The notes under the pieces are model-generated. The model was not told where the DNA came from. It saw nothing but the letters and a program-made list of their open reading frames with translations, and did not search any database. A stretch of DNA of 64,000 nt from contig NZ_CP093340.1 in the NCBI RefSeq assembly GCF_022637415.1, forward strand, positions 992,001-1,056,000, written 5' to 3'. Shown in pieces: positions 29,254 to 32,824 of this stretch. The position numbers and the translations under genes were made by a program. This DNA is from Luteimonas sp. S4-F44 (GTDB lineage: Bacteria > Pseudomonadota > Gammaproteobacteria > Xanthomonadales > Xanthomonadaceae). How positions within the stretch are numbered: position 1 is the first letter of the stretch; every line of letters starts with the position of its first letter.

Positions 29254-29567
29254 GGCTAGGCCGCAGGTCTGCGCATCCAGTTAGGGCTCGCTGCGAGGGC
29301 AAGGACGCCGACTGCATGGCAATCATGAGCCGCCAAGCCCCGCGTCTGGTGCCGTAGCACGCAGGGTGGACTGTGACGTTCATCAAAGACGGCCTGTCCG
29401 CACAGGGCCAGTATCCCCCTGGGGCAGGACGTCCGTAGGCCGGAGTGCTACAACGCCGACGCCCCGTCCAGGTACCGCGCGTGCGTTCGACTGGAATGTC
29501 GAGCATGTGTTCCGGCGGACGTGCAAGCGGCATTCGCAAGTTGATGCAATCGACAAGGAGAGACGAC
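29254..29567. other. Non-coding leader region of the lanthipeptide locus
   Basis: No gene supported on either strand. It separates the purF operon from the lanthipeptide precursor and should contain its promoter, but I could not identify convincing -35/-10 boxes or an operator. Confidence 0.45.
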
Positions 29568-29756
29568 ATGCAGCACGACGAAATCGTTGGCGGCTGGCTG
29601 AGTGGGGCCGACACCGTAGATGGCTACGAGAACCCGGCGGGGGCATTGTATGTGGAGGGCATTGCCGCGACCGAAGCGGCGATGACCGACAAGAGTTTCT
29701 TGCTGCTGACGCAATGCAGTTCCTGTACGGCGTCGATCCCGGCGCACTGCTGTTGA
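29568..29756 (+). CDS. Class II lanthipeptide precursor (LanA)
   Basis: 62 residues with a strong ribosome-binding site (AAGGAG, seven bases before ATG). The first two thirds are an acidic leader (DEIVGGWLSGADTVDGYEN); the C-terminal third holds all four Cys (50, 53, 61, 62) among Ser/Thr: FLLLTQCSSCTASIPAHCC. Thr48, Ser51, Ser52, Thr54 and Ser56 are potential dehydration sites and the terminal Cys pair recalls lacticin-481-type cores. The leader lacks an obvious Gly-Gly processing site next to the core; AGA at 24-26 is the nearest. It is encoded 131 bases before a LanM gene, which is the main evidence for its role. Confidence 0.85.
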   Translation: MQHDEIVGGWLSGADTVDGYENPAGALYVEGIAATEAAMTDKSFLLLTQCSSCTASIPAHCC

Positions 29757-29761
29757 TAGGA

Positions 29762-29800
29762 CGCGGAAGCGGGCTCGCCGAGTGCGGGTCCGCTTCCGCG
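29762..29800 (+). promoter_or_regulatory. Hairpin between lanA and lanM
   Basis: Perfect 11-base arms CGCGGAAGCGG and CCGCTTCCGCG with a 17-base loop, five bases after the precursor stop. There is no T-run. Such stem-loops between precursor and synthetase genes commonly act as partial terminators or RNA processing barriers that leave the precursor mRNA in excess. Confidence 0.65.
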
Positions 29801-29887
29801 GCGGAGCCGGTCGCGGTCCTCGTCTCGCCGGGATGATCCGGAACACGGCTCGGAAGTGGCGATGCGCGTCATGCAGATCGGGATGCA

Positions 29888-32824
29888 ATGGCCATCGTGC
29901 TCGCAGGAGCGGAGACCGGCATGGATGACAGAGTGGCAGGTACAGAGTTCGATCGCGCGATCGACGTGATCATTTCGGATGCACGCCAGGATTTGGAGGC
30001 TCGACTGGCAGCCGTTTCGCAAAGGCTCGCACCGGAGGAACGCGGCGTCGTGTCCACCGCGGCGCATCGCGCGCTGTTGGCAAATGCGAGGCGCAAGCTC
30101 AACCGGGTGTTGTTGTTGGAACTGCACGCGGCGCAATTGGCCGGTCACCTGCAGCAGGATGGCGAGCGTGGGCGCTTTGATGAGTTCATCGAGCGCTCCA
30201 GCCAACCGGCGTTCGTCGCCCATCTCACATGGCGATATCCTGCGCTGCGCCCCCGGCTTGAGCGGGCATTGCGCCAGCAGGCATCGGCGCTGGCCTCAAT
30301 GGTGCAGCGATTGGGCAACGATCGCACCCAATTGCGCGCCCTCATCGGGGGTCAGGAGGGCATGCTGCGCGCTCTTCACCTGGGGCAGGGGGACGTGCAT
30401 AACGGTGGGCAGGCGGTCGCGCACCTGGAGTTCGAGGGCGGCAGCGTGATGTACAAGCCGCGCTCAGTGGCGATCGACATGGCGCTGGAGCGCTTTCTCG
30501 AACGGGTGCTCGGGGACGACCCGCTGCGTATCCGTGTGCCGGCGGCGCTTCTGGGGGCAGGTTATGGGTGGTCGGCATTCGCCACGCACCACTACTGCAA
30601 GGACGACGAAGAGCTGGCCGCCTTTTATCGCAACATCGGCCATTGGCTGGCCGTGATGCGTCTTTTGGGCGGCACCGACCTGCACCACGAGAACATCATC
30701 GCGGTTGGGCCGGTGCCGGTGGCGGTGGACGTCGAAAGCCTGTTCGCACCCGAGGTTGACGTGCCGTCGACGGGACTGGGCGCGGCGATGGATGCGGCGA
30801 GCCGACTGATCACCACTTCGGTATTGCGTACCGGCTTGGTGCCGTTTCGCGCACCGATGCTCGGCCTGCACGGGGTGGACATTTCGGCGGCAGGCGCGCT
30901 TCCCGACGAGCAGCCGAAGATTCGGGTCCCGCTGATCATCGACGCCGGTACGACCTCGGCCCGCATGCAGGTTGCGGATGTCGAACTGCCACCTGCACGC
31001 AATCATCCTTGTGCCCGCCCGGACATCTCCCAGTACTGGAATCATGTCGTCGATGGATTTTCCGAGCTGACCGCACGCTTTCAGGCCCTCGACCGCACTA
31101 AGGAGCTGCGCCCCTTGCTCGCGCCCTTCTTCGGTTGCGAGGCCAGGCGGATCCGGCGTCCGACGCAGGCGTACTCCGAAGTGATGCGCATGCTCTGGCA
31201 TCCCGCATCGCTACACAACGAACCTCCGGCGCTCGAGCGCGCTCGGGATATTCTGCAACGCAATGCCGCCGTATTGCCGGTCGCGCCACGCGACTCGGAC
31301 ACGATCGCCGGCGAAGTCGAAGACATGCGCTACGGCGACATCCCCGTCTTTTCCGAAATGCTGTCTGCTGTCGACATCGACGCGGCCTTGGATAGCTGGC
31401 GCGGCATGCGTCTCGAGATGGAAGAACTGACGATCCGGGGTGCGCTGGTGACGGCCTACCTTAATGGCAAGCTCGCCAATCGCGAAAGTGCGCCGCGCGA
31501 TGTCGTGGCTCGCCGCCCGCATGCCGACGGACTGGATCGCCGGCGCCGCGTGCTCGCGAGGGAGACGGTTGAGAAGTTACTGCGGCTGTCGGTGTCCGGC
31601 GAGGACGGGACGTCGGCGTGGATCAGTCCCGTGCTCGGCGCGGAGGGCTGGACGATGCGCACGCTCCAGTCCGATCTCTACATCGGGTTAGGAGGAATCG
31701 CTGTCGCGCTGGCTGGTTACCGGCATGAAGTCAGGTTGGGACGCGCTGATCCTGTGGACGGCCTGGACAGCGCCATCGCGGGCGCAATCCGGGTCGCGGA
31801 GACGCTCGAACAGCAAGAGCCGATCGATGCGGTCGGCGGGTTCATCGGCCTGGGGTCGCAGGTGCTGACTTGGACGACCCTGTACCACCTGGATAGCGAT
31901 CCCGCGATGCTCGAGCGTGCGCGCCGAAGCGCGACCACACTGGCCCGACGAGGGTTCCGCCCAGACGACAATCTGGATCTGCTCGAAGGCGTCAGCGGCG
32001 CGATCGTACCGTTGCTGCAACTGGCCCAGTTGGACGAAGACGATGCGTGGCTGGAAGTGGCCGCCGAGGCTGGGCGCCACCTGGAGGCGGCCGCGATCGT
32101 CGATGCCCAGGGGGCGCGCTGGCCGAGTGCCATCTTCGATCGGCCGCTGGGAGGCTTCGCGCACGGCGCCACGGGGAGCGGATGGGCGCTCGCGAGGCTC
32201 GCATCGAGCACCGCGGGGACGCAGCATGAGCGTGATCGATGGGCAGCGCTGGCCGAGCAGGCTTTCGTTTTTGAAGATGGTCTCTACGACCATTCAGCGG
32301 GGGATTGGATCGACGTCCGCAAGCCGGAGTCCAAGGACTTTCCCGACACGTGGTGCCACGGCAGCGTCGGCATCGGACTCGCTGCTTGCGATCTCTATGC
32401 GCGCACCGGCGGAGTGCGTCACCTCGACACGTTGCGGCGGGCGGTCCGTGCGGCTGAGCGACGCGGCTGGGGCATCAGCCACACGCTTTGCCATGGCGAT
32501 CTGAGCCTGTGGGAGCTGCTCGAGCGCGCTTCAGCGCTGGATCCGGGCTTGCGACGCGATGACGGATTGCCGGCCGGCGCCCGTATCGTCTCGGCGATGG
32601 AGGAGTGCAGTGGGGCAGTCGGCGGGCTGGCGCGCGATACCTACACGCCGGGGCTGATGAGCGGCGTGTCGGGATCGCTGCACTTCCTCAATCGCTTGCA
32701 TCCCGACTGTCGGTTGCCTTCGCCCCTGCTGTTGGAGTGCGGGCTCGACACACCGACGCTGGCGTCGTGCGCCGCGCCCGATCGCGTGGACGTGGCAGCG
32801 GAGACGGAGGTCACTCCCGGCTAG
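29888..32824 (+). CDS. lanM: Class II lanthipeptide synthetase LanM
   Basis: 978 residues, the usual LanM size. The N-terminal dehydratase (DUF4135, kinase-like) has GDVHNGGQ at 168-175, KPR at 190-192, TDLHHENII at 263-271 and VDVES at 280-284; it phosphorylates and eliminates Ser/Thr. The C-terminal LanC-like cyclase has repeated GxxG helices (YIGLGGIAVALAGY, FAHGATGSGWALA) and the zinc ligands Cys823 (WCHG) and Cys868-His869 (LCHGD). It would install lanthionine rings in the peptide encoded just upstream. The ATG at 29888 has a poor ribosome-binding site. No LanT, LanP or immunity gene is adjacent. Codon use seems less GC-biased than neighbours, hinting at acquisition. Confidence 0.95.
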   Translation: MAIVLAGAETGMDDRVAGTEFDRAIDVIISDARQDLEARLAAVSQRLAPEERGVVSTAAHRALLANARRKLNRVLLLELHAAQLAGHLQQDGERGRFDEFIERSSQPAFVAHLTWRYPALRPRLERALRQQASALASMVQRLGNDRTQLRALIGGQEGMLRALHLGQGDVHNGGQAVAHLEFEGGSVMYKPRSVAIDMALERFLERVLGDDPLRIRVPAALLGAGYGWSAFATHHYCKDDEELAAFYRNIGHWLAVMRLLGGTDLHHENIIAVGPVPVAVDVESLFAPEVDVPSTGLGAAMDAASRLITTSVLRTGLVPFRAPMLGLHGVDISAAGALPDEQPKIRVPLIIDAGTTSARMQVADVELPPARNHPCARPDISQYWNHVVDGFSELTARFQALDRTKELRPLLAPFFGCEARRIRRPTQAYSEVMRMLWHPASLHNEPPALERARDILQRNAAVLPVAPRDSDTIAGEVEDMRYGDIPVFSEMLSAVDIDAALDSWRGMRLEMEELTIRGALVTAYLNGKLANRESAPRDVVARRPHADGLDRRRRVLARETVEKLLRLSVSGEDGTSAWISPVLGAEGWTMRTLQSDLYIGLGGIAVALAGYRHEVRLGRADPVDGLDSAIAGAIRVAETLEQQEPIDAVGGFIGLGSQVLTWTTLYHLDSDPAMLERARRSATTLARRGFRPDDNLDLLEGVSGAIVPLLQLAQLDEDDAWLEVAAEAGRHLEAAAIVDAQGARWPSAIFDRPLGGFAHGATGSGWALARLASSTAGTQHERDRWAALAEQAFVFEDGLYDHSAGDWIDVRKPESKDFPDTWCHGSVGIGLAACDLYARTGGVRHLDTLRRAVRAAERRGWGISHTLCHGDLSLWELLERASALDPGLRRDDGLPAGARIVSAMEECSGAVGGLARDTYTPGLMSGVSGSLHFLNRLHPDCRLPSPLLLECGLDTPTLASCAAPDRVDVAAETEVTPG

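Follow-up and report, generated by a model that had tools for sequence, protein, structure and literature searches.

In the 64,000-nucleotide stretch of the Luteimonas sp. S4-F44 genome analysed here (positions 992,001 to 1,056,000 of NZ_CP093340.1, the single contig of 3,685,273 bases; hereafter the window), two adjacent genes on the forward strand probably form a working class II lanthipeptide operon of the DUF6229 type, whose product would be made, cyclized and released in the manner proposed below and would be directed at other bacteria. The first gene, lanA (29568..29756, from the ATG at 29568 to the end of the stop codon), encodes a precursor of 62 amino acids (aa) that matches the DUF6229 profile (PF19740) with 80.4 bits, the curated cut-off being 25. 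The second, lanM (29921..32824), encodes a class II lanthipeptide synthetase similar in sequence to LicM2 and CylM. Compared with NCBIfam, which holds TIGR03898, presumably the model for mersacidin/lichenicidin-type precursors, LanA gave no match at an E value of 0.1. A ribosome-binding site (RBS), AAGGAG, was read directly at 29555..29560 on the same strand, with a spacer of 7 nt to the ATG; RBS-like sites are also present 5' of the lanA genes of relatives, where the starts were picked partly by such sites. An earlier, sequence-only reading of the window had described a Cys-containing precursor of this length with a strong RBS, followed by a full-length LanM with intact dehydratase and zinc motifs, and both descriptions were borne out apart from the lanM start. 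The lanM frame is open from 29888 to 32824 (978 aa), but since the matches to two named Luteimonas loci open at query residues 11 and 8, translation probably starts at Met12 (29921), 33 nt downstream of the frame's first ATG.

LanM matched DUF4135 (300 bits), LANC_like (PF05147, 118 bits) and the LanM model TIGR03897 (510 bits, cut-off 304), as well as two relatives of solved structure, LicM2 with 153.7 bits and CylM with 102.7. The dehydratase domain (30236..31354, forward strand, from the Pfam match and the CylM alignment) and the LanC-like cyclase domain (31667..32707, forward strand) lie in one protein, as is characteristic of class II synthetases. In the numbering of the 978-aa frame, and with the CylM pairings counted by eye in the alignment, D169, H171, K190, D264 and H266 align with CylM D252, H254, K274, D347 and H349, and N269, D281, R420 and T426 with CylM N352, D364, R506 and T512; the functional roles of these nine dehydratase residues in CylM have been described (PMC4550811; statements taken from this and the other papers cited rest on the parts of their text available to us). 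The presumed zinc ligands C823, C868 and H869 fall in the motifs WCHG (822–825) and LCHG (867–870), which are aligned with identical motifs in LicM2. As judged from these alignments, the residues for phosphorylation, elimination and zinc binding are all present. LanM is under purifying selection, with ratios of nonsynonymous to synonymous substitution (dN/dS) of 0.138 to 0.182 in four Luteimonas comparisons. Because of this family membership and the intact catalytic residues, LanM is expected to phosphorylate and dehydrate Ser and Thr residues of the LanA core, to which the Cys thiols would then be added to form thioether rings.

The pairing of the two genes is not a matter of chance, since all 38 DUF6229 open reading frames (ORFs) found in 23 of the 297 genomes of the family have a same-strand LanM within 3 kb downstream, with 322–726 bases to its DUF4135 domain. 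A precursor with a leader and a Ser/Thr/Cys core therefore stands beside LanM in the relatives as it does in the window, and conservation of the precursor frame next to the synthetase, on which the sequence-only reading had made its case depend, was observed throughout. Conversely, 35 of the 51 DUF4135 domains scoring above 180 bits are paired with DUF6229, a count that leaves out eleven weak rows of 47 bits or less. At the order level, DUF6229 occurs in 44 of 398 genomes. The leaders are alike, sharing a W and the motif NPAG, whereas the cores are variable. In a tree of 35 LanM sequences, the group with WR leaders forms one branch with 100/100 support and two core types form one branch each; the CSSC type appears in two places, although it may still have had one origin.

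A product of this general kind has been described. A cluster of Dyella sp. 333MFSha (LanII) with a DUF6229 precursor was refactored in 2022 and expressed in a heterologous host, giving rhodanocins with four dehydrations and three rings, the pattern of which was determined by nuclear magnetic resonance: Thr6-Cys11, Cys8-Ser14 and Thr12-Cys23, with Thr18 as dehydrobutyrine (PMC9576775). The same paper proposed DUF6229 proteins as precursors of lanthipeptides, with at least two ring types among them. In a 2024 preprint, 24 Lysobacter genomes yielded 72 class II clusters, with DUF6229 accounting for 21 of 27 unique precursors and with six network families; no structure is given for these lanthipeptides in the text available, and their placement of Cys, Ser and Thr is stated to differ from that of rhodanocin (PMC11451712). 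The subtype CSSC[ST]AS...CC, which the window shares, occurs in our genus g16, inferred to be Lysobacter. In the transcriptome of L. capsici, three LanM genes showed 1.7 to 5.2 fold expression changes (PMC10380237). Our full-text search found no paper joining lanthipeptide, Xanthomonadaceae and LanM, and rhodanocin was named in PMC9576775 only; among the papers found for lanthipeptide and Luteimonas, the text available for part of them does not concern this locus. The expectation of a new product thus stands for the exact Luteimonas peptide and falls for its kind, since the DUF6229 family had been described before.

The leader of LanA has the conserved GWL and NPAG motifs and lacks a double glycine at its end; the core after it reads ...T48-Q-C50-S51-S52-C53-T54-A55-S56-I-P-A-H-C61-C62. 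In this core T48, C50, C53, T54 and S56 reproduce the rhodanocin spacing T, C(+2), C(+5), T(+6) and S(+8), the comparison being based on residue positions given in the text of PMC9576775 and not on the letters of the Dyella precursor. Two further rhodanocin residues, the Thr at +12 and the one C-terminal Cys at +17, have no counterparts; instead, the window has a Cys pair at +13 and +14 from T48 and an extra Ser after the first Cys. The spacing [ST]xCxxC[ST]xS was found in 33 of 80 DUF6229 rows, which are not independent of one another; of 16,000 shuffled C-termini, 51 show it. Identical rows were removed before counting (four in one set, two in another), and the 80 omit the LanA of G138 5400893, G283 C29, G252 4166452, G173 865908 and G273 C8. 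Of the 33, 26 carry a C-terminal Cys pair, and every one of them has a Ser directly after the first Cys; the other 7 carry a single C-terminal Cys, and in none of them is that residue Ser or Thr. These 7 come from G484, G485, G536 and G568; by eye, 4 fit all seven rhodanocin positions and 3 are one residue longer. From residue spacing, we predict rhodanocin-like rings consisting of a methyllanthionine T48-C53, a lanthionine C50-S56 (Cys before Ser) and a methyllanthionine from T54 to C61 or C62. Since the Ser after the first Cys always accompanies the Cys pair and is never found with the single Cys, S51 would be the partner of the extra Cys, giving a predicted fourth ring from S51 to the remaining C-terminal Cys.

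Several observations weigh against the reading as a whole: i) the last two Cys of the core are not at +17, as the terminal Cys of rhodanocin is; ii) many of the 33 rows with the shared spacing belong to one core type and are close kin; iii) the LanM of the window, whose LanA has a GWL-type leader, lies in a deep clade other than the rhodanocin-like one (a 100/100 split), so that the ring topology need not carry over, although the rhodanocin-like clade is represented by one row, G536, the LanM of Dyella itself not being in the tree; and iv) orthologs of a C39 exporter encoded elsewhere in the genome occur with DUF6229 in 4 of 5 Luteimonas genomes and in 0 of 13 without it (Fisher p 0.0016), and in g16 in 10 of 13 and 0 of 4, respectively (p 0.015; 17 members listed with some C39).

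This last point concerns how the leader is removed. LicM2 and CylM belong to class II lantibiotic systems with LanT, and the window locus resembles these canonical systems in LanM architecture and catalytic residues but differs in having no linked LanT, no double-glycine leader end and no immunity genes. The sequence-only reading had taken the locus to be minimal; no linked extras were found, but it is not a stripped-down oddity, as all 35 DUF6229-LanM loci lack a C39 gene within 100 kb on their contigs. Searched for C39, the 23 DUF6229 genomes yielded 51 places. The one closest to such a locus is at a distance of 104,828 bases; for 20 of the 35 loci no C39 lies on the same contig, so that contig ends limit this count. 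That the search can see LanT is shown by the other LanM loci of these genomes, 3 of 10 having a C39 about 8.2 kb away (Fisher p 0.008, the loci not being independent). With no linked C39 and no double glycine at the leader end, a shared, unlinked protease or exporter is likelier than a dedicated LanT, and leader removal and release would most likely proceed by such a route. Rhodanocin is similar in this respect: LahT150, a C39 protease, failed to cut its precursor despite a possible double-glycine motif, and leader removal is unexplained there too, as far as the available text goes (PMC9576775). The modified peptide would probably act on other bacteria, as rhodanocin does weakly, inhibiting Klebsiella at 126 uM after an AspN cut (PMC9576775).

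A search of the source genome for an unlinked C39 peptidase transporter, suggested along with the sequence-only reading, found one, a C39-ABC exporter at C1:1390253-1392361, 369,712 bases from the locus. It raises the alternative that this single exporter, shared with a second peptide system, removes the leader and secretes the core, in which case the product would be an ordinary lantibiotic. In addition to the association within Luteimonas and g16, orthologs of the exporter (at least 63% identity) were found in 14 of the 23 genomes with DUF6229 and 6 of the 274 without, in a search that scored three candidates per genome and with statistics that ignore kinship and genome size. This co-occurrence fits a role for C39; uncorrected as it is, we take it as a lead toward a shared exporter, not as proof. 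However, the exporter has its own setting: it sits in a graspetide-type cluster (L009:5775-9361, C1:1388775-1392361) with an ATP-grasp ligase (TIGR04187, 190 bits, under the cut-off of 350) and a 52-aa ORF (L009:6955-7113, minus strand), the leader of which, read by eye, ends in ELTEDEVAAVAGG, whereas the LanA leader ends without a double glycine. Moreover, 9 of the 23 DUF6229 genomes have no ortholog of it and 2 (G020 and G118) have no C39 at all, and LahT150 left the rhodanocin precursor uncut. On balance we consider this alternative doubtful.

Unlinked LanT proteins were also considered as a general answer for the family, which is doubtful given G020 and G118. In addition, G071, G098, G190, G273 and G283 have one C39 each, with no ABC part like that of L009 in the stretch around it, and the best C39 locus of G097 likewise has none, its second C39 frame (742 aa) being excluded from this statement.

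Another possibility is that the modified peptide retains its leader or remains in the cell and acts there, as the sequence-only reading had allowed. The absence of a linked C39 at all 35 loci, as far as contigs reach, is compatible with this, as is the lack of any widely recurrent transporter or other dedicated gene among 114 neighbour proteins (25 of 156 families shown; ABC_tran 2, MFS_1 2). These proteins came from 28 of 30 loci, several large or short frames were left out, and the frame picker may err, so that the recurrence seen is a lower bound. Among the omitted frames are AcrB-type efflux pump genes, which lie on the opposite strand beside the DUF6229-LanM loci of G070 (L047) and G144 (L049) and speak for an outward route. 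The fast-changing cores under alike leaders also look more like an outward, competitive role, and the AspN-cut rhodanocin is active on Klebsiella. An intracellular product is therefore unlikely.

The preferred reading of a working operon is also to be seen against the patchy presence of the locus. Upstream lie purF and then a DUF455 gene, both by family profile matches, and downstream a calcineurin-like phosphoesterase gene in the place of lpxH and an E/Q-type class I tRNA synthetase gene in that of gltX; the names lpxH and gltX are those of the sequence-only reading, the assignment here being by family with no equivalog-model comparison. Its placement of the locus agrees with these matches, as does its statement that no transporter, protease, regulator or immunity gene is linked: by ORF reading, no gene besides lanA and lanM was seen between DUF455 and lpxH. 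A search for DUF455 gave a match in 51 of 52 Luteimonas genomes, and 30 loci were examined. The lan genes are present in the same order at 5 of these (the window, L. abyssi and Y-2-2-4F among them), lpxH follows DUF455 with no lan genes between at 23, including the close relatives G596 and G589, and neither lan genes nor lpxH are in the stretch examined at 2. At G574, another Luteimonas locus with the lan genes, the lanM matches fall in two frames, by a real break or an error. Although the patchiness and the G574 frames would fit a decaying locus without product, the window has two open frames, a full set of catalytic residues and a low dN/dS, and decay is highly improbable.

A DUF6229-LanM locus of the WR type was also seen in G536, a genome of another family of the order, near a gltX-like gene and a gene like the 164-aa one that adjoins the Luteimonas site.

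Comparison of the window with G574, in steps of 100 bases, gave identities of mostly 89–99% (near 94%) in the flanking genes and 76–91% in the spacer between DUF455 and lanA. Codons 1–41 of lanA are near identical, after which identity drops to about 51–75% from the end of the core across the 5' portion of lanM, to recover towards the end of the gene, the fall spanning 29690–32800. G574 carries two lanA genes: in codons 1–41 of the window, 26 informative sites fit the first alone and 2 the second alone, whereas codons 42–62 split 7 to 9, with 3 fitting neither. Synonymous divergence (dS) from G574 is 0.74 for LanM and 0.20–0.26 for four flanking genes. Since in more distant Luteimonas comparisons LanM dS (0.89–1.18) is again roughly double the value for the flanks (0.42–0.61), weaker codon bias may be part of the cause. 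For this one genome pair, the sequence pattern suggests that the core and the synthetase may have been exchanged under a kept leader. On whether the whole locus moved between Luteimonas species, the evidence is mixed: protein identities (LanM 74–77%, LpxH about 78%) fit shared descent at one site, and the higher LanM dS fits either weaker codon bias or exchange.

Directly 3' of lanA, folding of the region 29754–29890 (−72.4 kcal/mol, z −3.19 against dinucleotide shuffles) placed a 17-bp hairpin with no T run at 29762..29800 on the forward strand, a possible attenuator between the two genes. Scored locally, it did not exceed the best of 10 base shuffles. Of the 26 loci tested, 16 have a local hairpin that outscores all ten base shuffles, and the window is not one of these; in 5 further loci lanA and lanM are, by the measure of this test, only 2–8 bases apart. 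A scan of the locus for promoters and terminators found nothing.

Two other loci of the same genome were noted. A class III LanKC gene (712 bits, cut-off 575) followed by an ABC transporter gene, at C1:3046500-3050969 (L006:7501-11970), is a second lanthipeptide system. At C1:1374487-1378667, a partial LanM-type protein with DUF4135 and DUF6624 but no cyclase (L008:10488-13406) overlaps a JmjC/cupin protein (L008:13145-14668); the pair is possibly an undescribed modifying system, and nine other genomes have weak DUF4135 rows of their own, in open frames of about 836–931 aa.

An M13 metallopeptidase gene adjoins LanM in 5 of 30 relatives' loci (L046, L048, L052, L056 and L151), confirmed by Pfam in all five; in L046 it lies 46 bases downstream on the same strand. 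As four of the five have neighbouring LanM sequences in the tree, they were counted as two settings. A bolder proposal, possible but tentative, is that the DUF6229 family does without LanT altogether, that a general or secreted oligopeptidase, with M13 as candidate, frees a peptide that never had a double glycine, and that the Luteimonas member extends the rhodanocin frame by the fourth ring, between S51 and a C-terminal Cys. Overall, what the sequence-only reading observed is confirmed, while its interpretation is partly supported. The two-gene Luteimonas locus is now tied to a family with one solved structure, turning a likely new product into a testable ring prediction, and the lack of a linked C39 exporter becomes a property of the whole family, which raises the question by which route the peptides of Gram-negative DUF6229 producers are freed and released.

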